Source of the DNA: Gammaproteobacteria bacterium
GTDB taxonomy: Bacteria > Pseudomonadota > Gammaproteobacteria > Pseudomonadales > Azotimanducaceae
Assembly (NCBI GenBank): GCA_002725995.1
Contig: PBRQ01000098.1
Location: forward strand, 1 to 64,000
DNA length: 64,000 nucleotides
Direction: 5' to 3'
The position numbers were made by a program, and so were the translations under genes. Numbering within the stretch: the stretch's first letter is position 1; the number at the start of each line of letters is the position of its first letter. The notes under the pieces were generated by a model. The model saw nothing but the letters and a program-made list of their open reading frames with translations. It did no database searches and was not told the origin of the DNA. This document shows positions 40,300 to 53,668 of the stretch, in pieces.

Positions 40300-41139
40300 A
40301 TGAAGATATCAGTGCTGTTGCTGGCCCTGTTTGGCATTACTGGATGCGCTAACCTGGTTTCCGGCCTTACCTCAAAAATGGCAGATGACCTCGCTTACAC
40401 GATATTGAACAGTGATGATCTGGACACCGTGAGGGAAGGCGTGCCTGCATATCTACTCTTGATCGACAGCTTTCTTAAGAGTGACCCGGAAAATAAGAAT
40501 CTGCTGCTGGCAGCATCTTCTTTGAATGGTTCCTACAGTATTTTTGCTGATGACGAGAGGGCAAAACTACTGACCGCCAAGTCATTTTCCTATGCCGTGA
40601 GAGCAGCGTGCATCGAAAGCGCCCGGCTGTGCAAATTTCGCTTCCTTGAGTTTCCGGAGTTTCGACTGGTTGCGGACGGCCTGCGGATGGAAGACCTGCC
40701 AGTCGCTTATTCGATGGGTGTCGCCTGGACCGGATGGATCCAGGCTCACAGTGAAGACTGGAACGCAATTGCTGAGCTTGCGAAGGTTCGTTACCTGATG
40801 GAGCGTATCATCGTGCTGGATGAGAGTTGGGAAAATGGAGGCCCACATTTATACATGGGTGGGCTGGAGACCGTCTTTCCTGCTGCCATGGGTGGTCACC
40901 CGGAAAAGGGGCGCGAGCACTTTGAGAGAGCACTTGTATTGTCTGAGGAGAAATACCTGATGACAAAGGTTGTCTACGCGGAACAGTATGCGAGACTCGT
41001 ATTTGACAGGGAGGTTCACGACCGGTTGTTAAACGAAGTTGTAGATGCTGACCCGGTAGTAGAGGGAATGACTCTGACAAACCGCATTGCACAGGAGCGA
41101 GCAAGGGAGTTGCTGGCCACTTCAGATGACTATTTTTGA
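40300..41139 (+). CDS. TatT-like TRAP-associated lipoprotein
   Basis: 279-residue lipoprotein: signal peptide with lipobox ITGC (Cys16). The mature part is alpha-helical and repeat-like, matching the TatT component family that binds DctP in a subset of TRAP systems (known from a Treponema pallidum TatPT structure). It precedes dctP, dctQ and dctM. TatT-containing TRAPs are suggested to import hydrophobic ligands such as fatty acids, which would fit this genome region, but that is inference. Confidence 0.85.
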   Translation: MKISVLLLALFGITGCANLVSGLTSKMADDLAYTILNSDDLDTVREGVPAYLLLIDSFLKSDPENKNLLLAASSLNGSYSIFADDERAKLLTAKSFSYAVRAACIESARLCKFRFLEFPEFRLVADGLRMEDLPVAYSMGVAWTGWIQAHSEDWNAIAELAKVRYLMERIIVLDESWENGGPHLYMGGLETVFPAAMGGHPEKGREHFERALVLSEEKYLMTKVVYAEQYARLVFDREVHDRLLNEVVDADPVVEGMTLTNRIAQERARELLATSDDYF

Positions 41140-41173
41140 TATGCCGATACAGTATCACCGAGGAACTCGGCTC

Positions 41174-42235
41174 ATGAGCCAAATATCCGAAAAATTGGTC
41201 CACCTATTTTCAGGGCGCGTGCTGGCAAAAGTGAGTTTGCTGATGACATTGCTGATGCTTGTGCCCTGTACTGCTCATGCAAAGAGCTACAAGGTCGCAA
41301 CGATTTCCCCGGATGGCCTTTCCTGGATGAAAAAGTTTCGCGCTGCTATCAAAGATATTGAAGCTCAGACTGAAGGTCGGGTGAAGTTTAAAATCTATCC
41401 TGGTGGGGTTATGGGTGATGACTATACGGTGCTGCGCAAGATGCGAGTTGGCCAGCTACATGGTGGTGGATTTGCTGCTGGTTCCTTAACGAGGTTCTAC
41501 CCGGACCTTCAGGTCTACAACCTCCCTTTTCAGTTCCAGTCGTTTGACGAAGTGGATTACGTCAGGGCGCGAATGGACAGCCGCATTGTTGATGGACTGG
41601 AAAGTGGTGGTTTGAACAGTTTCTCCCTGACAGAGACCGGGTTTGCCTACCTGATGTCCAAGGACCCGGTGACTAGCGTAGACGACCTCCATAAGCTCAA
41701 GGCCTGGGTTCCCGATGGCGATCCGATTTCCGCGGACCTGATCAAGTCATTTGGCATCAGTCCAATTCCGCTGAGTATTACTGACGTATTGCCCGGGCTA
41801 CAGACAGGGCTGATTAATGCTGTTGCGGTACCACCTATTGTGGCGCTCGCTCTGCAGTGGCATAACCACGTCAAATATATGATGGATATGCCACTCATTT
41901 ACATTTATTCGCTGGTCGCCATGGACAAAAAAGTATTTTCGAGAATTTCAGAGTTGGACCGCAAGATCGTATACAAGGTGATGAATAAGCTGTTCAACGA
42001 AATCGATGCAGACAACCGCAGGGACAATCAAAAAGCCTATAGCGCACTTGTTGCGCAGGGAATAAAGGTGACCTCTCCCGGCCCAGAGCAGATACCTGCC
42101 TGGAGGGCGATAGCGGACAGGTCTATTGATGAGTTGGTTGAATCCGGTCAGATCTCGAACGAGTCCCTGGGTCTTTACAAGGGCTTTCTCGAGGAATTTC
42201 GACAGCAGGCGGGCGGCTCAGAACCAGGCGAGTAG
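41174..42235 (+). CDS. TRAP transporter solute-binding protein (DctP family)
   Basis: 353-residue periplasmic binding protein with signal peptide ending AHAK: KVATISPDGLSWMKKFRAA, GVMGDDYTVLRKMRVGQLHGGG, and DPVTSVDDLHKLKAWVPDGD. Belongs to the DctP/TatP group that pairs with TatT. The start at 41174 gives a normal signal peptide; ATG at 41141 directly after the TatT stop would add 11 residues. Ligand not readable. Confidence 0.9.
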   Translation: MSQISEKLVHLFSGRVLAKVSLLMTLLMLVPCTAHAKSYKVATISPDGLSWMKKFRAAIKDIEAQTEGRVKFKIYPGGVMGDDYTVLRKMRVGQLHGGGFAAGSLTRFYPDLQVYNLPFQFQSFDEVDYVRARMDSRIVDGLESGGLNSFSLTETGFAYLMSKDPVTSVDDLHKLKAWVPDGDPISADLIKSFGISPIPLSITDVLPGLQTGLINAVAVPPIVALALQWHNHVKYMMDMPLIYIYSLVAMDKKVFSRISELDRKIVYKVMNKLFNEIDADNRRDNQKAYSALVAQGIKVTSPGPEQIPAWRAIADRSIDELVESGQISNESLGLYKGFLEEFRQQAGGSEPGE

Positions 42236-42243
42236 TATCTTCA

Positions 42244-42732
42244 ATGCAGGGTGAAATGTTTAAGCGGTTGCTTCATGGTCTCCATCGGTTTGAAGATGGT
42301 GCTCTGATAGCTGCGCTTGCTTCCATGCTCATACTTGCAATCGTTCAGATTGCGCTGCGAAATATCTTCGATAGCGGGCTCCTCTGGGTGGAGTCTTTCC
42401 TCCGTATTCTCGTACTCTGGGTGGCCATTCTCGGTGCCATGGTGGCCACCAGAGAGAAAAATCACATCAATATTGATGCGTTGTCCCGTTATGCGCCCAG
42501 AGGGTTAAGACTGGCGCTCCAGCTGTGTACGACACTGTTTGCCGCTGCAACCTGCACAATTGTGGCCTGGTATTCCGTTGAATTCATCCAATTCGAGTAC
42601 GAAGACCAGACGATAGCATTCGCCAGTGTTCCGACCTGGGTGTGCCAATCAATCCTGCCGATTGGCTTTACCGTAATGGCGGTTAGGTTTGTCCATGGCG
42701 CTATTTCAGATATTTTGGTGCGGCAGCACTGA
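42244..42732 (+). CDS. TRAP transporter small permease (DctQ)
   Basis: 162-residue protein with four spans and the DctQ signature WVESFLRILVLWVAILGAM and KNHINIDAL. ATG at 42256 with AGGG upstream is an alternative start. Its stop overlaps the dctM ATG by one base. It links the large permease and shields the transport channel. Confidence 0.92.
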   Translation: MQGEMFKRLLHGLHRFEDGALIAALASMLILAIVQIALRNIFDSGLLWVESFLRILVLWVAILGAMVATREKNHINIDALSRYAPRGLRLALQLCTTLFAAATCTIVAWYSVEFIQFEYEDQTIAFASVPTWVCQSILPIGFTVMAVRFVHGAISDILVRQH

Positions 42733-44015
42733 TGGCTCTACTTGTCTCGCTTCTGATAGCTTTGCTCGCCCTCGCTGGCGCGCCACTTTTTGTGGTGATC
42801 CTGGCAGCAGCTATGACGGGATTCTACTATGCGGAAATTCCCCTGACAGTGATTACCGTCGAAATCTACCGGTTGGTGGATACACCCCTGTTGCTGGCGC
42901 TGCCCCTGTTTACCTTCTCGGGATACGTGCTGGCTGAGAGTCAGCTGTCTTCCCGCCTTGTGCGGTTGACCCAGGTGTTTCTCGGCTGGCTCCCTGGGGG
43001 ACTCTCGGTAGTAGCATTTGTAACCTGCGCATTTTTTACAGCATTTACGGGTGCTTCCGGAGTGACCATTGTTGCCGTTGGGGCGTTGCTGTTTCCTGCC
43101 CTGGTACGGGCTGGCTACCAGGAAAAATTCAGCCTCGGCCTGGTCACAACCTCCGGAAGTCTCGGCTTGCTATTGGCACCCTCTCTCCCTCTGATACTTT
43201 ATGGCGTAATAGTTCAGCAGATGGAACTACCCAATCCATTCACGATTCAGGAATTGTTTATCGCCGGGATTCTGCCAGCCCTGTTGATGATTGTATTGTT
43301 GACCCTGTTCAGTATCTGGTCCAATCGCTCCCAACCGATTGAAATAGGAAAATTCAGCCGTAAGGAAGCTCTGAGCGCTTTGTGGGTGATGCGGTGGGAG
43401 TTGCCCCTTCCGGTCATCGTTCTGGGTGGAATCTACTCGGGATTTTTTGCCGTATCTGAAGCAGCAGCAGTTACCGCATTTTATGTGCTATTGGTCGAGG
43501 TGGTTATTCATCGTGAAGTGAAGTATCTCGATTTGCCTCGTGTCATCAGGGAGGCCATGATAATGGTGGGGGGAATCCTGCTAATCCTGGGCGTCTCCCT
43601 CGCATTCACAAACTATCTGATTGATGCCGAAGTCCCGCAGCTGCTGTTTGAGTGGATACAGACATTCATTTCTTCGAAAACCACTTTCCTGATCCTGCTG
43701 AACCTGATTCTGCTTGCCCTCGGCGCCATCCTGGATATCTTTTCAGCACTGGTCATTATGATTCCACTGATCGTGCCCATGGCACTTCAGTTTGGTATTG
43801 ACCCGGTACACCTGGGTATCATTTTCCTGGCGAATATGCAGATCGGGTACTTCACACCACCGATTGGCATGAATCTCTTCATCGCCAGTTACCGCTTCAA
43901 ACGGCCAATTACAGAGCTTTATCAGGCCACCATCCCGTTCATGCTGGTATTGCTGGTCGCGCTGGTGATCATCACCTATGTCCCTGAGGTTAGTCTTATC
44001 TTTCTCAACAGGTAG
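42732..44015 (+). CDS. TRAP transporter large permease (DctM)
   Basis: 427-residue ion-coupled permease with about 12 spans and DctM motifs AFFTAFTGASGVTIVAVGALL, LGLLLAPSLPLILYGV and LANMQIGYFTPPIGMNLF. It completes the tatT-dctP-dctQ-dctM operon and uses a Na+ gradient to import the bound solute. Confidence 0.95.
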   Translation: MALLVSLLIALLALAGAPLFVVILAAAMTGFYYAEIPLTVITVEIYRLVDTPLLLALPLFTFSGYVLAESQLSSRLVRLTQVFLGWLPGGLSVVAFVTCAFFTAFTGASGVTIVAVGALLFPALVRAGYQEKFSLGLVTTSGSLGLLLAPSLPLILYGVIVQQMELPNPFTIQELFIAGILPALLMIVLLTLFSIWSNRSQPIEIGKFSRKEALSALWVMRWELPLPVIVLGGIYSGFFAVSEAAAVTAFYVLLVEVVIHREVKYLDLPRVIREAMIMVGGILLILGVSLAFTNYLIDAEVPQLLFEWIQTFISSKTTFLILLNLILLALGAILDIFSALVIMIPLIVPMALQFGIDPVHLGIIFLANMQIGYFTPPIGMNLFIASYRFKRPITELYQATIPFMLVLLVALVIITYVPEVSLIFLNR

Positions 44016-44257
44016 GTGCCTGTAGGTCAGACTGATATTCTTGTTTTATTCGACTTTTCCTGAGGCCGGCAGGTTCCCCAAAGGCTGGATATTGCTAGAA
44101 TATAATATTGTTAAAAATCAAATAGATAGGTAAGATTCTTAAGTACGATTTTAACTATAGTATGTAGTGGACTTAATTCCTACTTGAGTGGTTCTTCAAT
44201 TGAGCTAGTCGTATAGTGCAGGAACTGAATTCAATGGATGGAAGACTGGATACCTAG

Positions 44258-45460
44258 TTGAGTAGCGTAATTACAAGTGCTGACTATCAGCGCCTGATTG
44301 AAATCGGGCTGGCATTGTCTGCAGAAAAGGAAATCAACAGCCTGCTGGAGCGTGTCCTCAGGGAGGCGAAGGCAGTGGGAAATGCTGATGCCGGAACACT
44401 CTACCTCAAGAATAGTGATGAAACGCTGAGTTTCGTTATTATTCTCAATGATACCTTGAATATATTCCAGGGCGGGACAAGTGAAGACCCTGTGGCCTTG
44501 CCTAATGTACCGCTGCTGACGGAATCCGGTGATCAGAATATGGCCAATATCGTGAGCCGCGCGACCCTTCTTGGGGAGACACTGATTGTCGATGATGCAT
44601 ATGCCACAGACGAGTTTGATTTCTCGGGTACCAGGTTATTCGACGAAATGACTGGCTACCATTCAACTTCCTTCCTCACGATTCCCATGAAGGCACACTC
44701 GGAAAAAGTAATCGGGGTCTTGCAGTTGCTCAACGCGAAATCACCGAAGGGAGAGGTCATCGCCTTTTCAAGTCATGTGAGGTCGCTGATTGAGGCACTA
44801 TGTTCTCAAGCTTCAGTAGCGATGGAAAACAGGTACCTGCTTGATGAACAGGAACAGTTAAAGAAACAGCTGGAAGATGAGGTTGATGTCCGAACCGCGG
44901 AACTTAAGAAAGCGTTAGACGAACTGTCACGTGCACATACCGTATTGAAAGAAATAACGACGATTGACCCGGTCACGGGGATCCGAAACCGACAGTATTT
45001 CGATGAGATTTTTGATCAGGAGTGGCGACGTGCGCAGCGGCAGCAATATAGTCTTTCGATGCTATTGGTGGACATTGATCATTTCAAAAAGGTCAACGAT
45101 ACCTATGGTCACCTGGCGGGTGATGAATGCCTCGCCGGGGTTGCTGGTGCTATAGACGTGATGCTAAATCGACCGTCTGACGTGGTTGCTCGCTATGGTG
45201 GTGAGGAATTTGTTGTGGTTATGCCCTATGCTTCGAGTGAGAATGCAGAGCATCTGGCAGATTTTGTCCGAGATGGCGTGGCTAAACGTGTATTTAACGC
45301 TGCTGGTGAAAATATTAGCGTGACAATCAGCATTGGAGTAAGTTCGGTTGTTCCAGACGAGCAGGGACGGCCCCGTGATCTGATCAGCCAGGCGGATGAT
45401 GCGCTTTATCAGGCAAAGGCAAAGGGCCGCAACCAAGTGTGTGTTTATGGAGTTGACTAG
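44258..45460 (+). CDS. GAF-GGDEF diguanylate cyclase
   Basis: 400-residue cytoplasmic signalling protein. GAF domain about 1-190 with FDEMTGYHSTSFLTIP, a coiled-coil linker (about 195-235), and a GGDEF domain with active site GGEEF at 314-318 and inhibitory I-site RPSD at 305-308, five residues upstream, so feedback by c-di-GMP is expected. TTG start with weak GGAT ribosome site. The GAF domain is clearly paralogous to that of the HD-GYP protein at 50275. It would make c-di-GMP in response to an unknown GAF ligand. Confidence 0.92.
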   Translation: MSSVITSADYQRLIEIGLALSAEKEINSLLERVLREAKAVGNADAGTLYLKNSDETLSFVIILNDTLNIFQGGTSEDPVALPNVPLLTESGDQNMANIVSRATLLGETLIVDDAYATDEFDFSGTRLFDEMTGYHSTSFLTIPMKAHSEKVIGVLQLLNAKSPKGEVIAFSSHVRSLIEALCSQASVAMENRYLLDEQEQLKKQLEDEVDVRTAELKKALDELSRAHTVLKEITTIDPVTGIRNRQYFDEIFDQEWRRAQRQQYSLSMLLVDIDHFKKVNDTYGHLAGDECLAGVAGAIDVMLNRPSDVVARYGGEEFVVVMPYASSENAEHLADFVRDGVAKRVFNAAGENISVTISIGVSSVVPDEQGRPRDLISQADDALYQAKAKGRNQVCVYGVD

Positions 45461-45749
45461 GCGCTTTTTGCATGGGCCTGCCCGCAGCCAAGCGGCGCAA
45501 GGTTTTGATACGCACGCATTGGGTCCAGCGCATAAGCGAAATGAAATGTGGTCAGGCTGCTGATAAGCAGAAATAATCTCGCAAGAGCGCGAGCACTTTT
45601 CACGATAGGCTCGGTCTGTAGGATTTAGCGAAGTCTATAATATCGATGGATGATCATAGGCGGTAAATTGGGTGTGCTCGGCCACTATTTTTGAGTAGAC
45701 TTAGCGACAATTGCTATATTGCTGACAGGGCCGCGGCTAGGGGAAGATA

Positions 45750-47528
45750 GTGGCGCAACAGATATCATTCAATAGTTTCGCTCGTCAACTGAATGCCCAC
45801 ACGGACCAGCTCAGTTACAATAAAATAGCTCCACCCATCGAATATGATAGTGACGGTAACGACATTCCCCATCGCCCCCAGTCCCTGACGATTGAATCTG
45901 GCGATGTCTATCGATTGCTAAAGCCCTATTTCACCGTCAGGTTTATGGACCAGTTTAAGTCAGTCCTGCCATTGGCCGTATACCTGGCGCTATTTCAAAT
46001 GTTTATTTTGCGGCAGTCAGTCGAAGATGCTCTGATTATCACCGGAGGCCTGGTTGCCGTAATATTTGGTCTGATGCTTTTTATGGAAGGGCTGAAAGTT
46101 GGGCTTATGCCCTTCGGTGAGTCACTTGGCATATCCCTGCCTGCGAAGGTGAGTCTTAGCATTGTTCTCGTCGTTGTATTCCTGCTGGGTATCGGCGTCA
46201 CTTTTGCTGAACCCGCTATAGGCGCCCTGAAGACCGCAGGATCGCTGGTTGATGTCAACCGGGCACCCTATTTGTATTCAATACTTAACGATTGGTCGGA
46301 TATTCTCGTGCTGTCGGTGGGTGTGGGCGTGGGCCTTGCCGCGGTACTTGGGACAATACGTTTCATTTACGGCTGGAGCCTGAAACCACTGATTTATCTG
46401 ACCCTGGCTCCTGTTCTGCTGGTAAGTCTCTATATGGCGATAGACGAGGAGTTGTCCAAGGTGCTCGGGCTTGCATTTGATTGTGGCGCAGTAACAACGG
46501 GCCCGGTAACCGTGCCCCTCGTGCTGTCCCTTGGTATCGGGATTGCACATGCGGCTGGAAAGGGCGGCGACTCCCTGTCAGGGTTTGGCATTGTTACGCT
46601 GGCTTCGCTATTTCCCATCGTTGCCGTGATGCTTTTAACCATGTATGTGTCGGCTCAATTTACGCCAGAAATGATAATTACCGCAGCGCAGCAGACACAG
46701 ATTGTCTCGGATGCAGTGCCCTGGTATGAATCCACTCCAGGGGTTGAAGTTGTTGGTGGGATTCGTGCCATCGTCCCCCTTGTCATATTCCTGCTACTTG
46801 TCATGACCGTACTGCTCAAGGAGAAATTGCCAAATCCAACGATTATGTTCTTCGGTATCTTTCTCTGTGTCCTTGGCATGGTGGTATTCAACCTTGGTCT
46901 GAGCTATGGCTTGTCAAAACTGGGAGGTCAGAGCGGCGGGCTGGTTCCTGCGGCATTTACTCAGATCGAGGCGGTAGAGGACTCACCCCTGTACTTTGTC
47001 GCGCTGGGAGTCTTCATCGCACTTGCCTTTGCCTGGTTGTTGGGATTTGGAGCAACCCTGGCAGAACCTGCACTAAATGCACTAGGGATGACAGTTGAAA
47101 ACCTGACCAATGGCTCCTTTAAAAAGACCACCTTGATGTACGCTGTTTCGCTTGGCGTAGCCTTCGGGATATCCATCGGCGTGGCAAAAATCATATTTGA
47201 TATACCGATCGCATACCTGTTAATTCCCGGATACTTACTGGCCATTTTCTTGACCTCTATTTCCAATGAAGAGTTTGTCAATATAGCGTGGGATAGTGCT
47301 GGAGTGACCACAGGGCCCGTAACCGTACCGCTGGTACTGGCGATGGGACTTGGGTTTGGTAATGCCCTTGGGGCCGTTGAAGGCTTTGGTATTTTGTCCA
47401 TGGCCTCTATCGGTCCAATCGTCGCTGTTTTGAGCACCGGTGTGTACATAAGGTGGAAGATCTCCAGGCGTTACGCGCGAGATGAACAGGAAGATAACGA
47501 AAGTTTAGTGGGGGAACCCATGTTATGA
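45750..47528 (+). CDS. DUF1538 membrane protein, duplicated transporter-like
   Basis: 592-residue membrane protein with about 14 spans made of two related halves. TFAEPAIGAL (about 150) is repeated as TLAEPALNAL (about 435), and VTTGPVTVPLVL (about 248) recurs near 518; an internal repeat of this kind is typical of transporters. GTG start after GGGGAAGATA. Its stop overlaps the ATG of a P-II-like gene by four bases and a second P-II-like gene follows, so it is probably controlled by these proteins as AmtB is by GlnK. Substrate unknown. Confidence 0.88.
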   Translation: MAQQISFNSFARQLNAHTDQLSYNKIAPPIEYDSDGNDIPHRPQSLTIESGDVYRLLKPYFTVRFMDQFKSVLPLAVYLALFQMFILRQSVEDALIITGGLVAVIFGLMLFMEGLKVGLMPFGESLGISLPAKVSLSIVLVVVFLLGIGVTFAEPAIGALKTAGSLVDVNRAPYLYSILNDWSDILVLSVGVGVGLAAVLGTIRFIYGWSLKPLIYLTLAPVLLVSLYMAIDEELSKVLGLAFDCGAVTTGPVTVPLVLSLGIGIAHAAGKGGDSLSGFGIVTLASLFPIVAVMLLTMYVSAQFTPEMIITAAQQTQIVSDAVPWYESTPGVEVVGGIRAIVPLVIFLLLVMTVLLKEKLPNPTIMFFGIFLCVLGMVVFNLGLSYGLSKLGGQSGGLVPAAFTQIEAVEDSPLYFVALGVFIALAFAWLLGFGATLAEPALNALGMTVENLTNGSFKKTTLMYAVSLGVAFGISIGVAKIIFDIPIAYLLIPGYLLAIFLTSISNEEFVNIAWDSAGVTTGPVTVPLVLAMGLGFGNALGAVEGFGILSMASIGPIVAVLSTGVYIRWKISRRYARDEQEDNESLVGEPML

Positions 47529-47896
47529 ATGCAAAAGAATTTACTGTCCTTACGGATGTTTCGATGATCACGTGTGTTGTGCAGCGAGGCAAGGCAGATG
47601 CGGTGGTTAAGGCTGCCCAGGATGCAGGGGCACAGGGTGCCACTATCTACTATGGGTATGGCAGTGGTGTAAGGGAGAGGCTCGGTATTCTGGGGCTGGC
47701 CGTTGATGTGGAAAAGGAAATAATCACCTCCCTCGTGGCTGATGACCAGGTAGACAGAATATTTGAAAGGATGTACTTCGCCGGAGAACTGGATGTCCCG
47801 GGCGGTGGAATCATTTACATAACCAAGCTTGATAAGGCCGCGACCTATATTCCCAAAGATGTTATTGAGAGTATCAATGAGAAGTCCGAGGCATGA
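47525..47896 (+). CDS. P-II family-like regulator, DUF1538-associated (first)
   Basis: 123-residue P-II fold protein: core strand ITCVVQRGKADAVVKAAQ, a short T-loop (GATIYYGYGSGVRE), B-loop-like segment, and C-terminal PGGGIIYITKLDKAATYIP. The GlnB uridylylation motif (RGAEY) is absent, so it is not a standard nitrogen P-II. Translationally coupled to the DUF1538 gene. Probably a ligand-gated plug or modulator of the transporter. Confidence 0.85.
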   Translation: MNAKEFTVLTDVSMITCVVQRGKADAVVKAAQDAGAQGATIYYGYGSGVRERLGILGLAVDVEKEIITSLVADDQVDRIFERMYFAGELDVPGGGIIYITKLDKAATYIPKDVIESINEKSEA

Positions 47897-47992
47897 GCTG
47901 TTTTAGTCTGGATCTATCGATCCGATTCAGACGGCTGGCTCGTTTGTCAATCCAATGTGGGTGAGAGCCAGTCATCTTCCTTGCAGGTATGT

Positions 47993-48358
47993 ATGGAAAA
48001 TAAACTAGACAACGCCAAATTGATAACCTGTATTCTGCCCAAGGGCAGAGCTCATAATCTTCAACAGGCGCTCATAGAGGAGAAGGAAAACCACAGTGTG
48101 AACTTTCACTTTGCACGTGGCGTAGGGCGGTTCTCGCAGATCACTGCTCGCGGTATCGGTGAGCAACAGGAGAAAGAGGTGCTGGAAGCGATCATATCCG
48201 CGGAACTAGCAGATGAGTTGTTTGAATTTATGTTCTTTAAGGGTGAAATGGACCAGCCCCATGGCGGGGTTATCTATATGACCAGTATTCCCGGGGCAAC
48301 GGAGTTGCAAATGCCAGATCTTCCCTCTGAAGATAAAAGGGCCAAGCAACAGCACTAG
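47993..48358 (+). CDS. P-II family-like regulator (second)
   Basis: 121-residue P-II fold protein related to its neighbour: ITCILPKGRAHNLQQALIEE, T-loop region NFHFARGVGRFSQIT, and QPHGGVIYMTSI. The start at 47993 (MENKLD) has AGG upstream; a GTG at 47957 lacks a ribosome site. Two non-identical P-II-like proteins could form homo- or hetero-trimers and sense different states. Third gene of the DUF1538 operon after a 96-bp gap. Confidence 0.83.
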   Translation: MENKLDNAKLITCILPKGRAHNLQQALIEEKENHSVNFHFARGVGRFSQITARGIGEQQEKEVLEAIISAELADELFEFMFFKGEMDQPHGGVIYMTSIPGATELQMPDLPSEDKRAKQQH

Positions 48359-48436
48359 CAACCCGCTGGGAAATAATCTTGGCGATCAACCTGGAATATA
48401 AAAGTCCCATTCATTACGTTGGAAGTATCCATGTTC

Positions 48437-48798
48437 CTACCCAAGGTTCTCTGCCGTCGCTGAAGAGCGAACCGCATAAACGATTTCCTCATCGCGGGCT
48501 TTCTGCAAGGCCTCATGGTGGCTGCGGAGTTGGTCTTCTATCGCTCTGGATATTGCTGTGGAAGTAATTTTGTAGCGGATAGAAGCGCAGAATGAATCGG
48601 CATCGGCGCCAATCTCATCATTGCTAGGCAGGCTGTCGATATCAACGAATTCAGCGTAGGCGTCAACTGTGACAACAAATCCTGGTGGAACCGGAAACCC
48701 CTGGTGAATGAGTTCCCGAGGCTGGCACCTTTACCGCCCGTTGCCTTGAGGTCTTCTCTGCGAACCTCGTCAAGCTTGATGATGGACATAAACTTCAC
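48437..48798 (-). pseudogene. PEP synthase/PPDK N-terminal fragment, frameshifted
   Basis: From ATG 48798 (or 48789) the frame reads IIKLDEVRREDLKATGGKGASLG, the ATP-binding start of PEP synthase. Near 48690-48720 the sense moves to another frame (FPVPPGFVVTVDAYAEF ... DEIGADADSF) and continues through ARDEEIVYAVRSSATAENLG to a stop at 48437. The RSSATAE motif is typical of PpsA (normally about 790 residues), so only the first ~120 residues remain. One frameshift and a large 3' deletion. Confidence 0.88.
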
Positions 48799-49014
48799 AT
48801 CCTTAGTCAGGTTCGCAAGATAGCAAAGCTACGGATAACTTTCGAAGGAAACCGAGCCATCATTGATATTGAGATGACTGGGCTGGAAGTTTCAGGCATC
48901 GAGAGCGCCGTTCAAATTGTCAGGCTGCGATTTTCGACAGACCGTTGTTTATCAGACGGGGTATTCTATATTTACTTTTAATAACAATAAGATGGGCGTT
49001 AATGTCAAAGTGTT

Positions 49015-49923
49015 TTACTGATCTGCTAGTTTGAATTCTGACGACAGAGTAGGATTCCCTGAACAGGTAACCTGGCCGGAATCGATCAGTCTGAGCATGG
49101 CTGCCAAAACTGACCAGCCCGCCGCAGTGTACATGACCGGGTCCGTATCTGCGTACATAACAGGGACCATGTCCTTGATCACCGAGTACCCCTGGGTCAT
49201 CACATCTATGATCTGACGTTCCCGGTCAAGGCGGTGATCGATATATGCCTGTACATACGTTTTGACATCCTTGATGCAGGGACCGTGGCTTGGCCAGTAG
49301 ATTGTTTCGTCACGCTGCAGGAGCAGATTGAGACTATCCAGATACTGGGTCATATCACCATCCGGCGGGGCAATAACGCTGGTAGCCCAGCCCATAATAT
49401 GGTCGCCGGTGAAAATTGCGTTCTCCTCTGCCAGTGCAAAGCACAGGTGATTGGAGGTGTGGCCGGGCGTATACACACACTCGATGGTCCAGCCATCTCC
49501 TTCGAGAACTTCTCCATGTTTGACGCGCACATCCGGTTCGAAATCCCTGTCACCTCCTACTTCAACAGCGATTCCCTGCTCTAGTTTCCCTGCACCGTGT
49601 GGGCCGTAGGCATAGGTCCGGGCGTCCCAGAATGCTTTCAATGGTTCTGCTGCCGGCGAGTGGTCCCCGTGGGTATGGGTGACAAAAATGTGTGAAACTT
49701 CCTCACCCTCGAGAGCATCTTTTAGTGCATCGATATGCTCCTCAAGCAGGGGCCCAGGGTCGATAACGGCGACTCTGCCCTGGCCGACAATATAGGTCCC
49801 GGTACCATTGTAGGTAAAGCCACTTGAGTTTCTGGCCGTGACCCTTCGGATTAAGGGGGTCAGTTGCTCTGACTTGCAGTATTCAAAGTCATACTTGAAG
49901 TTAAAGGGTATTTTCACCGACAT
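49015..49923 (-). CDS. MBL-fold metallo-hydrolase
   Basis: 302-residue metallo-beta-lactamase-fold hydrolase: HTHGDH at 83-88 (two-metal site), further His in VYTPGHTSNHLCF and Asp in IFTGDHIMG, then a C-terminal helical domain as in LACTB2-like proteins. Ribosome site GAGAGG. Substrate unknown; glyoxalase II-like or thioesterase-like activity is common. Isolated on this strand. Confidence 0.9.
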   Translation of the reverse strand: MSVKIPFNFKYDFEYCKSEQLTPLIRRVTARNSSGFTYNGTGTYIVGQGRVAVIDPGPLLEEHIDALKDALEGEEVSHIFVTHTHGDHSPAAEPLKAFWDARTYAYGPHGAGKLEQGIAVEVGGDRDFEPDVRVKHGEVLEGDGWTIECVYTPGHTSNHLCFALAEENAIFTGDHIMGWATSVIAPPDGDMTQYLDSLNLLLQRDETIYWPSHGPCIKDVKTYVQAYIDHRLDRERQIIDVMTQGYSVIKDMVPVMYADTDPVMYTAAGWSVLAAMLRLIDSGQVTCSGNPTLSSEFKLADQ

Positions 49924-49979
49924 AGGAGCCTCTCTACTGAACGAAGAGTGGCAGCTTAGCAGAATTAGTCAGGGGTTCC

Positions 49980-50230
49980 CTAGCCCGGACAATTCATGAA
50001 GGGGTGGGAATTTAGGAGAAATCTGGCAAAGCATATTGGGTTAACGCCCGCAGAATCATAGCCGTAGCTATGGTTTAAGGGGGTCTGTTCAATAGGCAAA
50101 GTCAGATTTTTTCTAAAGCCGATCAGGTACAAACTGGACCCCTGGGAAAGCGTGAAGATCACCCATAACTCGTTGAAACTACTAATGTTAACGACGATTC
50201 CAAGCCGCCTTCATGAAATGTCCGGGCTAG
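49980..50230. mobile_element. MITE-like element, 251 bp, 23-bp terminal inverted repeats
   Basis: The left end (49980-50002, beginning CTAGCCCGGACAATTCATGA) and right end (50208-50230) are inverted copies with one mismatch. The ends resemble those I recall from IS1380-family elements, but that is from memory. The interior has no full transposase, only a 60-codon minus frame. No clear target duplication was seen. It lies between the MBL gene and the GAF-HD-GYP gene. A non-autonomous element or deleted IS fits best. Confidence 0.7.
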
Positions 50231-50274
50231 TTGGGTAAACTGTTGGAGTAGTTTCAGCAAGAAAGAGGAACCAG

Positions 50275-52032
50275 ATGTCTTCTGACCAAGCTTCATTTAA
50301 GCGACTGATTGATATCGGTATTGCGCTATCTGCGGAGAAGGATACCAATAGCCTGATGGAGCGAATTCTGCTCGAAGCAAAAGACATGGGAAATGCTGAT
50401 GGCGGGACCCTTTATATTCGGACGAAGAACGATGAACTGAAATTTGAAATTGTTCGCACGGACTCGCTTGGTATTGCCCAGGGTGGCACGACGGGCGTTG
50501 AAGTGACCCTTGGGCTGGTAAACATGTATAGCGATGACAATAAGCCTAACAATCACAATATTGTGACCTACTGTGCGCTTGCTGGAGAGACGATCAATAT
50601 AGCCGATGCCTACAATTCGGATGATTTTGATTTCTCTGGCACCAAAAAATTTGATCAGGACACTGGTTACCGGTCCAAGTCCCTCCTTACTGTGCCGCTT
50701 AAGAACAACGTCAACGATGTCATCGGTATACTTCAGCTTTTAAACTCACAGGATCCGGAAACTGGTGAGGTCGTTTCTTTTTCCGGTGAAGTTCAACCCC
50801 TGATTGAGGCGCTAGCGTCACAAGCTGCCGTGGCGCTGGACAACGCTATCCTGATCGATGCCCAAAAGAACCTCCTCGAGTCGTTCATTGAGCTAATGGC
50901 AAGCGCTGTTGATGCCAAATCCCCATACACTGGTGGTCATTGTCAGCGGGTACCGGAGCTAACGGAGATGTTGACGCGCGCCGCATGTGAGTCAGGGGAA
51001 GCGCCTTTTTCGGATTTCGACCTTGATGAGGACGAATGGTATGAATTGCACATAGGCGCATGGCTGCATGACTGTGGAAAGGTTACGACACCGGAATATG
51101 TGGTGGACAAGGCGACTAAACTTGAGACGATTACTGATCGTATTCACGAAGTCCGCACTAGATTTGAAGTACTGAAGAGAGAGGCAGTTATTGATTGCCA
51201 GGACAAAATAATTGCAGGCGGAGATGCCGCTGCGCTTCGCGATACACTGGAAGAGGAACTGGCAAAGATTGATGATGATTATGAGTTTATCGCCGACTGC
51301 AATGTTGGTGGTGAGTTTATGGCCCCGGAACATATTGATCGTCTTAAACAAATTGCCAAGATCGAGTGGACACGGACCCTTGACGATCGGGTCGGAATTG
51401 CCCGGGAAGAACTGGATCGCAAGGAACTGGAGCCGGCACGAGAACTCCCCTGCCGGGAATCTTTGTTGGCGGACCGGGTTGATCACATTTTCGAGCATGA
51501 CGCGGTTGTACCATCGGCGGACCCGGATAACCAATATGGGTTCAAGGTAGATGTTCCTGAGTACAAGTTCAACAAGGGAGAGGTCTACAACCTGTCGGTC
51601 GCGCGCGGTACCCTGACCAAGGAGGAGCGATTCAAGATCAACGATCATATCGTGCAGACCATCGTGATGCTAGAAAGCCTGCCTTTCCCCAAGCACCTGG
51701 AACGAATACCGGAAATAGCTGGGGGGCACCACGAGAAGACTGACGGGACAGGTTATCCAAAGCGTCTAGACGGAGATGACATGACTATCCCGGCAAAGGT
51801 TATGGCGATTGCCGATGTTTTTGAAGCACTCACGGCGGCTGACCGTCCCTACAAGATGCCGAAGACGCTGACGGCGAGTATCAAGATCATGTCATTTATG
51901 GTGAAGGATGCCCACCTAGATGCGGAACTGTTCCGCTTATTCCTGGAGTCAGGCGTCTACCAGACTTACGCAGAGAAGTATCTGCAGCCCAGCCAGATTG
52001 ACGAAGTAAATATTGCAGACTTTCTCAACTAA
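50275..52032 (+). CDS. GAF-HD-GYP phosphodiesterase with large insertion
   Basis: 585-residue protein: GAF domain about 1-190 (FDQDTGYRSKSLLTVP), then an HD-GYP domain starting DAKSPYTGGHCQRV. HD metal pair is His265-Asp266 (HDCGK) and the HHE-x2-DGTGYP motif is at 485-495. In ordinary HD-GYP proteins these lie about 60 residues apart; here about 220, so roughly 150 residues of charged helical sequence are inserted. It would hydrolyse c-di-GMP to GMP. GAGGAA ribosome site. Paralogous GAF to the cyclase at 44258. Confidence 0.92.
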   Translation: MSSDQASFKRLIDIGIALSAEKDTNSLMERILLEAKDMGNADGGTLYIRTKNDELKFEIVRTDSLGIAQGGTTGVEVTLGLVNMYSDDNKPNNHNIVTYCALAGETINIADAYNSDDFDFSGTKKFDQDTGYRSKSLLTVPLKNNVNDVIGILQLLNSQDPETGEVVSFSGEVQPLIEALASQAAVALDNAILIDAQKNLLESFIELMASAVDAKSPYTGGHCQRVPELTEMLTRAACESGEAPFSDFDLDEDEWYELHIGAWLHDCGKVTTPEYVVDKATKLETITDRIHEVRTRFEVLKREAVIDCQDKIIAGGDAAALRDTLEEELAKIDDDYEFIADCNVGGEFMAPEHIDRLKQIAKIEWTRTLDDRVGIAREELDRKELEPARELPCRESLLADRVDHIFEHDAVVPSADPDNQYGFKVDVPEYKFNKGEVYNLSVARGTLTKEERFKINDHIVQTIVMLESLPFPKHLERIPEIAGGHHEKTDGTGYPKRLDGDDMTIPAKVMAIADVFEALTAADRPYKMPKTLTASIKIMSFMVKDAHLDAELFRLFLESGVYQTYAEKYLQPSQIDEVNIADFLN

Positions 52033-52060
52033 CGGTACCTGCTACCGGTCACCTGGTCAG

Positions 52061-53668
52061 ATGGCACCTACAACCCTTCGGCTTGTATGCTTCTGCACTT
52101 TGCTGCTGCTATCGAGTTCACTGTTGGCAGGGGCAGTGAATTTTGAGCGCCAGTCTATAACCATTGCCTTCACTCAGGAGCCACCAAACCTCAACTCTAT
52201 CCGCATGACCGATCTGCTCAGCTATTTCGTAATAGGGCATGTGAACGAGGGGCTGCTGCGTTACGACAGAAAAGGACGGTTGGCTCCCGGTGTGGCTGAA
52301 TCATGGGAGGTATCCGAAAAGAAAATCCGTTTCATGTTACGCAGGAATGCAAGGTGGTCAGATGGATCTACGGTCACTGCAAACGATTTTGAATTTGCCT
52401 GGAAGCTGGTAAACGACCCGAAGGTCGCTGCGCCATTCGCGGCTATCATGCATCCACTAAAAAATGCAGAGAAAATCCAGAACGGCGAATTGCCGGTTAG
52501 TGAGCTTGGTGTCTCCGTCATAGATGACTTCACACTGGAAGTTGACCTTGAGCGGCCCTGTGGTTATTGCATTAGTCTGATGCCTCACGCTACCTTTTTT
52601 CCGGTTAAAAAGGCGTTCTATCTGCCGCGAAAGGAGCAGTATGGGGCGGAATTCAACCAGTTGTTATACAACGGCCCCTTCAAGATGACAGGTTGGGTCC
52701 ATGGGTCATCCATGGTGCTGGTCAAGAATCCACACTATTGGAATACCGCGAAGGTTCACCTGAATGAGATCAACGTCGGTTATATTACGGAAGACAACCG
52801 AACCAGGCTTAACCTGTTTCGTGACGGTAGTATTGCACTGGCAAGACTTGATGCAGAAACCGTGCGCGATGCCTCTAGCCAGGGGCTGCGGCTGAAGACT
52901 TTTGTCACCGGGGGAATGGCATATGTCTGGTTCAATCATCGCCCAGGCTCTATCACGGGGCAGCGGAAAATACGCAGGGCAATCCAGCTATCCTTCGATA
53001 CGGACCTGTTTGTCAATAAGGTTATCGCTGTCCCTGGATATAAACCGGCACACTCATTCTTCCCTTCATGGCTAAATGGAGTAGACGCGAAGTTTTCATC
53101 TGAATATCCGCCAACAATTGTGCAGCCAGATTCAAAACAGGCGCTAAAACTGATTCAAGAAGTGAAGGAGGAAATGCGGCTTGAGTCAATTCCTGAAATG
53201 ACGCTGCTGACGGTTGCATCACCAACGGGAGTAAAAATAGGTGAGTTTTTCCAGGGATTGCTCGGCCAGTCACTTGGTATCAAGGTCAAGATCGATCAAC
53301 AAACCTTCAAGCAGTACCTTGAAAAGGCGAGGGCAGGGCAATTTGATCTGGTGTTGTCCAGTTGGTTCCCGGATTTTAACGATATAGTGACCTACGCTGA
53401 TCTAATGGCCTCCTGGAATCCTAATAACCGCGGTGTTTACGTGAACGCTGAGTACGATCGATATTTTCGTATCCTGCAGGGTTCGACGGACAGGCGTGAC
53501 AGAATGGATGCAGCTGCCGAACTGCAGAAGATCATCACGGATGATGTTCCGCTGCTTCCGACGGCAGAGACCGGTTCAGCTTATCTGCAGCATCCGAAAC
53601 TCAAGGGTGTCGTTAGAAGAGTCCTGGGGCAGGATCCGGACTATACCTATGCAAGAGTGATTAACTAG
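52061..53668 (+). CDS. Peptide ABC transporter substrate-binding protein (SBP_bac_5)
   Basis: 535-residue OppA/DppA-type binding protein: signal peptide about 1-30, ITIAFTQEPPNLNSIRMTD, VAESWEVSEKKIRFMLR, NARWSDGSTVTANDFEFAWK. Start at 52061 gives a normal signal peptide; upstream frame overlaps the HD-GYP gene. No permease or ATPase genes follow, so partners lie elsewhere. The stop abuts the stop of the convergent glutamine synthetase-like gene with no gap. Confidence 0.92.
   Translation: MAPTTLRLVCFCTLLLLSSSLLAGAVNFERQSITIAFTQEPPNLNSIRMTDLLSYFVIGHVNEGLLRYDRKGRLAPGVAESWEVSEKKIRFMLRRNARWSDGSTVTANDFEFAWKLVNDPKVAAPFAAIMHPLKNAEKIQNGELPVSELGVSVIDDFTLEVDLERPCGYCISLMPHATFFPVKKAFYLPRKEQYGAEFNQLLYNGPFKMTGWVHGSSMVLVKNPHYWNTAKVHLNEINVGYITEDNRTRLNLFRDGSIALARLDAETVRDASSQGLRLKTFVTGGMAYVWFNHRPGSITGQRKIRRAIQLSFDTDLFVNKVIAVPGYKPAHSFFPSWLNGVDAKFSSEYPPTIVQPDSKQALKLIQEVKEEMRLESIPEMTLLTVASPTGVKIGEFFQGLLGQSLGIKVKIDQQTFKQYLEKARAGQFDLVLSSWFPDFNDIVTYADLMASWNPNNRGVYVNAEYDRYFRILQGSTDRRDRMDAAAELQKIITDDVPLLPTAETGSAYLQHPKLKGVVRRVLGQDPDYTYARVIN

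Follow-up and report, generated by a model that had tools for sequence, protein, structure and literature searches.

Which solute does a DUF1538 membrane protein carry when its gene is followed immediately by the genes of two PII-type proteins, and what do the PII proteins do to it? The question is raised by a three-gene operon in a 64,000-nucleotide stretch of DNA (the window: positions 1 to 64,000 of contig PBRQ01000098.1, assembly GCA_002725995.1) from a gammaproteobacterium of the Azotimanducaceae. We consider it somewhat better than an even prospect that the operon encodes a PII-regulated monovalent cation/proton antiporter unit, which would apply AmtB-GlnK-like logic to an unrelated, pseudo-dimeric transporter. 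This reading is drawn from sequence comparison and from analogy with characterized systems. The elements of the operon are as follows.

45750-47528, + strand: DUF1538-DUF1538 fused membrane protein of 592 amino acids with a GTG start (Pfam, NCBIfam, 56-row alignment, charge distribution).
47525-47528, + strand: ATGA start/stop overlap of the transporter and PII-1 genes (read in the sequence).
47525-47896, + strand: PII-1 (PF00543 at 31.2 bits, AlphaFold model and structural matches, residue table).
47993-48358, + strand: PII-2, a divergent second PII (profile matches to PDB PII proteins and to PII-1, tree clade).

A preliminary description of this DNA had noted a duplicated DUF1538 gene that overlaps a PII gene by four bases, and the coordinates, the shared ATGA and the two Pfam stretches all agree with it. 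The transporter matches PF07556 (DUF1538) in two stretches with 353.9 bits against a cut-off of 22.6 (E 3e-106), and at E 0.01 Pfam detects DUF1538 and no other family in it. The ATGA at 47525-47528 is common to the stop codon of the transporter gene and the start codon of PII-1, an arrangement which likely couples the translation of the two genes. In the list of open reading frames (ORFs), PII-2 spans 47957-48358 and starts with GTG; the first aligned residue of the family corresponds to the ATG at 47993, which appears to be the best start.

The comparisons use a set of 80 loci of the window type, in which a long fused transporter gene is followed by two separate PII genes. They were kept by a scan with the transporter, belong to several phyla by title and are mostly metagenome-assembled genomes. 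Rows for alignment were chosen by hand from these loci and the window (51 for PII-1, 47 for PII-2 and 56 for the transporter); 26 further rows represent the PII proteins of split systems, in which umpA and umpB are separate genes.

PII-1 passes the curated PF00543 cut-off of 25 bits, and its AlphaFold model has a pLDDT (predicted local distance difference test) score of 81.6. The best VIA match of the model is 1hwu_F (Z 13.0, root-mean-square deviation 1.7 over 83 residues), and the top 50 structural matches, with Z of 11.4-13.0, are PII proteins with the exception of a NIF3-related protein at rank 50. Cut-off and predicted fold together identify PII-1 as a PII protein. Pfam gives no match to PII-2 at E 0.01. 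The 47-row family profile of PII-2 nevertheless finds PII chains in the PDB (best E 1.9e-6), and hhalign aligns it to the PII-1 profile with E 8e-26; by profile, PII-2 is to be classed as a PII despite the absent Pfam match. The second, different PII-like gene of the preliminary description is thus recovered, and two PII genes are present in all 76 window-type loci with sufficient downstream sequence.

Both proteins depart from the classical pattern. The column of Tyr51, the uridylylation site, is gapped in every PII-1 row (51) and every split-type PII row (26), as well as in roughly 97% of the 47 PII-2 rows. The G37 and K58 columns are separated by 15 residues in 51/51 PII-1 rows, compared with 20 in the two aligned canonical GlnB/K rows, which come from relatives; the spacing is also 15 in 32/47 PII-2 rows, the others having 8-17 or not being listed. 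The missing GlnB uridylylation motif and the altered T-loops of the preliminary description are both borne out by these counts. At the positions of K90, R101 and R103, the ATP-phosphate residues of GlnB/GlnK, PII-1 has mainly F/I/L, T (100%) and I (76%), respectively. The G35, G37 and G89 columns are kept in 100% of the PII-1 rows, G87 in 98%, and the K58 column is K in 96%. PII-2 is more variable than PII-1, with I/L/F and mixed residues at the K90, R101 and R103 columns; in the split-type PII proteins, as in PII-2, Tyr51, K90, R101 and R103 are not the main residues. With Tyr51 absent and the classical ATP-phosphate residues replaced, PII-1 and PII-2 fall, as judged from the alignments, outside classical GlnB/GlnK, and the loss of these residues points to a different ligand or a different way of binding it. 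A canonical GlnB/K with a full T-loop motif is kept elsewhere in the genome of the window, on another contig; the PII proteins of the operon are therefore extra, specialized ones. PF00543 has only two places in this 3.2-Mb genome, as counted with a model that misses PII-2.

The association of the transporter with PII genes extends far beyond the window. Exactly two PII ORFs start no more than 600 bp past the end of the transporter gene in 76/76 window-type loci, namely those with at least 900 bp of downstream sequence. The four shorter loci contain two PII genes (L050, L069), one (L005) or none (L072, at a contig end). The transporter gene ends in [AGT]TGA, which permits a start/stop overlap, in 54 of the 80 loci. 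In a sample of the phylum DUF1538 occurs in 126/398 genomes, and a PII gene lies directly downstream on the same strand in 58/60 loci, which were hand-picked, one per genome, from the best places of the 126 genomes and are biased to high scores. Of the 11 seeds of the first split-type PII profile, some were canonical GlnB rows; a recount with new profiles again gave 58/60, and 76/76 for the window type. At the level of the order, 55/390 genomes have a strong UmpA-like match, and a PII gene is found downstream in 30/30 of the best UmpA-like loci. These 30 were used as the nearest loci, no Halomonas UmpAB equivalog beside a PII gene having been found among the 390 genomes; the cut-off of the NCBIfam UmpA model (NF041627) is passed by none of them, the best score being 428 bits. 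Two loci, L223 and L225, which are among the highest NCBIfam UmpA scores, have a PII gene on both sides of split umpAB. Plasmids have the same arrangement, with an adjacent PII gene in 6/6 records examined of the eight that carry DUF1538.

The reverse search gives a similar result. A query with a chain of three PII-like domains, found in some relatives of the operon, has matches at E<=1e-10 in 18/369 genomes, that of the window included. Five matches are to three-domain chains, aligned over nearly their whole length and encoded next to DUF1538; the window is a further match, and the 13 remaining matches all adjoin DUF1538 together with a second PII. With PII-1 as the query at E<=1e-3, weak matches (E 1.9e-4 to 7.4e-4) are obtained in L097-L101 to canonical-looking GlnB/K proteins, in whose short loci there is no DUF1538. 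The counts across these sets rule out chance adjacency of PII and DUF1538. Apart from a gene for a CBS-domain protein, the most widespread neighbouring family occurs in 16/140 loci; two larger clusters of neighbours (43 and 36 loci) are antisense ORFs of PII and CBS genes, as judged from the printed example coordinates. The pairing of "DUF1538" with "P-II family nitrogen regulator" is already visible in public annotation.

Five architectures can be distinguished. In type A, split umpA-umpB is followed by one PII gene and often by a CBS-domain gene, which some split systems lack. Type B is the window type. Type C has a short fused transporter (about 500 amino acids), one PII and a CBS gene. Type D, from Clostridia, pairs a short fused transporter with a single protein (217-224 amino acids) that contains two PII domains. 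In type E a long fused transporter (652 and 656 amino acids in two complete loci) is accompanied by a single chain of 384-420 amino acids with three PII-like domains; it was found in 2/38 relatives and 5/369 genomes of the class, all seven loci being gammaproteobacterial. The CBS gene follows the PII gene directly in 41/60 sampled loci, overlapping it by four bases in 34 of the 41, and in 0/80 window-type loci, short ones included. Short fused systems account for five of the 41. The CBS protein has about 135 amino acids, as in L176:5827-6234 (the 41 loci lie within L133-L192, and Pfam was run on one). These architectures indicate that there is a second-regulator slot, which, to judge from gene order, is filled by a CBS protein, by PII-2 or by a fused PII domain.

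The three-domain chains (L201:3399-4661, L202:3558-4748 and L203-L207) lie beside a fused DUF1538 gene, and each looks like a covalent PII pseudo-trimer. Their third domain scores at least 16 bits in 3/7 and less in the rest; in the five chains found by the search it is supported by similarity along almost the whole length, at 27-39% identity. The DUF1538 gene of L206 is split over two ORFs, and L204 has one stop inside the matched stretch. The two-domain chains of Clostridia (L195:4860-5528, L197:4497-5165, L199 and L200) are plasmid-borne; their first PII domain is weak in one of the four (L199, about 7 bits). In L178 and L184 a split and a fused window-type DUF1538-PII system occur within the same few kilobases, the second system of L178 being truncated at the locus boundary.

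In a 61-row tree, all 12 PII-2 rows form one clade with support of 99/98. This clade shares its side of the tree with PII-1 and with domains one and two of four three-domain chains, and this side lies apart from canonical GlnB/K (100/100) and the split-type PII proteins; the fork that separates the two sides has support of only 94/83.

The ratio of nonsynonymous to synonymous substitution rates (dN/dS) is 0.03-0.04 for the transporter (2/4 comparisons computable), 0.02-0.05 for PII-1 (4/4) and 0.09 for PII-2 (1/4). Overall, 7/12 comparisons could be computed, with a range of 0.02-0.09, and dS failed in 5/12, three of them for PII-2. Strong purifying selection acts on the transporter and on PII-1, and the sole computable comparison shows it for PII-2 as well. 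Linkage across phyla, fusion of the regulators and purifying selection strongly imply the regulated transport unit that the preliminary description had proposed.

What, then, does the unit transport? The preliminary description had regarded the substrate as not known and had counted a substrate already assigned to the family as refuting its proposal. A substrate has in fact been published for the family: in Halomonas zhaodongensis, UmpA and UmpB assemble into a heterodimeric Na+(Li+,K+)/H+ antiporter that is active at pH 6.5-9.5 (PMC5484666). This corrects the first statement and suggests a substrate class, and it says nothing against control by PII. UmpA and UmpB have seven predicted transmembrane segments each (PMC5484666). 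The window shares with UmpAB the pairing of homologous DUF1538 units, which are two genes there and one fused chain here. For the transporter of the window we propose a topology of 7+7 transmembrane segments, with the halves facing opposite ways and both ends inside. K and R amount to 19.1 per protein in the proposed inside segments (127 positions) and to 5.6 in the outside segments (126 positions); the labels were assigned by eye before the counting. Each half of the 56 aligned transporters keeps the motifs AEP and D..TTGPVTVPL, and E154, D244, E439 and D515 are invariant in all 56. A machine-learning paper of 2026 lists DUF1538 among features of pH adaptation, as far as its available text goes, and this fits an ion or pH role. 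Carried over by analogy from the distant UmpAB pair, the substrate of the transporter would be monovalent cations and H+.

Several points weigh against a PII-regulated antiporter. The transporter misses both NCBIfam equivalog cut-offs widely, scoring 202.4 bits with UmpA (NF041627, cut-off 490) and 151.2 bits with UmpB (NF041628, cut-off 500), and by these scores it is a DUF1538 relative and not an equivalog. The antiport label of DUF1538 itself comes from one pair of proteins and one laboratory, whose screen, in the portion of the record available, gave UPF0118, RDD and MFS proteins a similar activity. Loop 504-509, placed inside in the proposed topology, lacks K and R altogether and contains two acidic residues. 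The AlphaFold model of the transporter (pLDDT 79.9) finds no solved relative with Foldseek at E<=1e-3; VIA-align gives a best Z of 4.8 over 85 aligned residues, and the two matches of a sequence-profile search of the PDB are both at chance level. Because the model has no solved relative, the predicted fold lends no independent support to antiport, nor is it evidence of a new fold. Two of the 60 sampled loci, L185 and L187, have no downstream PII gene even at E 10, each yielding there one chance-level antisense or distant ORF. When umpA and umpB were subcloned alone in E. coli, they conferred salt tolerance and antiport (PMC5484666); the cognate PII is therefore not required for activity. The cloned insert of 4.2 kb comprised ORF1-ORF4, with umpAB as ORF3-4 (PMC5484666), and PII does not occur in the main text of that paper. 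Finally, the use of PII is apparently restricted to potentially trimeric transporters according to the consulted part of a review, which also lists two ABC importers, and the UmpAB heterodimer leaves the stoichiometry of PII on such a transporter a puzzle. The real stoichiometry may become clear from the chains with two or three PII domains.

Some of these points leave room for a different cargo. Control by PII could be real and the substrate another one, for example an anion or bicarbonate moved together with Na+ or H+ much as in SbtA-SbtB, with the antiport of UmpAB not being general for the family. The low UmpA and UmpB scores would fit this, and some window-type carriers are titled Thiothrix, Chromatiaceae or Mariprofundus, which belong to sulfur- or iron-oxidizing or phototrophic groups. 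Carbon uptake matters in such organisms. However, the only measured DUF1538 pair that we found exchanges Na+, Li+ and K+ for H+, the four acidic residues are invariant across both halves, and Pfam detects DUF1538 alone in the transporter. We regard another substrate as unlikely, and the antiport of monovalent cations remains the reading that we prefer.

How would the PII proteins act on such an antiporter? The three genes would form one unit, a fused cation/proton antiporter of the UmpAB kind with two dedicated PII proteins. PII-1 and PII-2 would, probably as a hetero-oligomer, dock on the cytoplasmic face of the transporter and, depending on a small ligand bound at the interface of PII subunits, would turn ion exchange on and off or slow it down. 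The sign of the control may be inhibition, which is a guess. Docking and ligand-controlled inhibition are postulated because of the precedents of AmtB-GlnK, SbtA-SbtB and NifI1-NifI2. Given how widely the pairing recurs, the PII proteins are probably a built-in control valve of the DUF1538 transporter. Our first guess for the ligand, at odds clearly below even, is a signal of energy state or an adenine nucleotide, because in many split-type relatives a CBS protein is encoded immediately downstream of PII. Adenosyl compounds are the usual ligands of CBS pairs. Examples of CBS domains that bind nucleotides are given in the review, in its available part.

The PII proteins might instead be fixed subunits that serve in gating or assembly and carry no ligand-driven signal. 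Tyr51, K90, R101 and R103 are missing or substituted, and the regulators are nearly always co-encoded with the transporter and sometimes fused into a two- or three-domain chain, as expected of subunits. UmpA and UmpB, however, function alone in E. coli, and PII-1 keeps the glycines of the G35, G37, G87 and G89 columns and K58, so that we find this role rather improbable. Action of the PII proteins on other targets, such as enzymes or gene expression, with mere co-transcription alongside an ion transporter, is very unlikely: canonical PII proteins do have many targets, but the linkage to DUF1538 holds for split as well as fused systems and on plasmids as well as chromosomes, the other neighbours vary, and a separate canonical GlnB/K is retained elsewhere in the genome.

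A ligand-dependent valve on the antiporter has parallels in known systems and differs from each of them. The preliminary description had compared the layout with AmtB-GlnK. The comparison stands as an analogy, a transporter gene lying beside the gene of a PII that is expected to act on it; membership does not, since the transporter family is unrelated (only DUF1538 is detected), there are two PII proteins, Tyr51 is absent and the ATP-ligand columns are replaced. Like SbtA-SbtB, as outlined in the review, the operon combines a secondary transporter with a dedicated regulator of the PII family; the SbtA family differs from DUF1538, and SbtA is trimeric whereas UmpAB is a heterodimer. PII-NG (PMC7726332, as far as its available text goes) is likewise encoded in a cluster with a cation antiporter, the proton/metal antiporter CzcABC. 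NifI1 and NifI2 are distinct PII proteins acting together in a complex, according to the accessible part of the source; their target is nitrogenase, whereas PII-1 and PII-2, the complex of which is putative, adjoin a transporter.

The titles and abstract openings of the open-licence PMC literature, among the matches listed, contain no description of DUF1538-PII linkage. The open-licence papers that name DUF1538 (PMC5484666, PMC13255231, PMC5996927, PMC6055358 and PMC7221264) do not mention a PII protein in their available portions; the last four refer to DUF1538 once or twice each, and the string "PII" in PMC7221264 is part of a sequence motif.

We give even weight to the wider proposal that DUF1538/UmpAB is a widespread, dedicated family of PII-gated cation/proton antiporters, the regulators of which have diversified into a PII with or without CBS, hetero-pairs, two-domain chains and three-domain pseudo-trimers. 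We know of no earlier PII partnership on a pseudo-dimeric secondary transporter. If the proposed control is real, PII signalling would extend beyond the uptake of nitrogen or carbon to pH and Na+/K+ homeostasis, the sole UmpAB studied would have been characterized without its regulator, and the "P-II family nitrogen regulator" annotations beside DUF1538 would gain a testable function. The natural designs (PII, PII with CBS, two PII proteins, two- and three-domain chains) offer a set for mapping PII stoichiometry and ligand sensing onto a pseudo-dimeric antiporter.

The surroundings of the operon include the following features.

40300-44015: TRAP (tripartite ATP-independent periplasmic) transporter set (T-component, DctP, DctQ, DctM), upstream of the GAF-GGDEF gene.
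44258-45460: GAF-GGDEF gene, upstream of the operon (Pfam).
48541-48798, - strand: ORF of 86 amino acids with no Pfam match.
50275-52032: GAF-HD gene, downstream of the operon (Pfam).

The other neighbours tested within 40300-53668 are a protein of the metallo-beta-lactamase fold and a family-5 solute-binding protein. Genes of CzcABC, a resistance-nodulation-division (RND) efflux system, or other RND genes are not among the neighbours tested in this interval. The GAF-GGDEF and GAF-HD proteins that flank the operon have similar N-terminal GAF domains and are possibly a pair that makes and breaks cyclic diguanylate. Relatives of one or both are found near the operon mainly in the closest relatives, and the two genes were therefore not counted in the unit. 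The start of the 86-residue ORF resembles, by eye, a protein of 863 amino acids that L004 encodes between its PII-2 and metallo-beta-lactamase genes, and a gene of this type seems to be truncated in the window.

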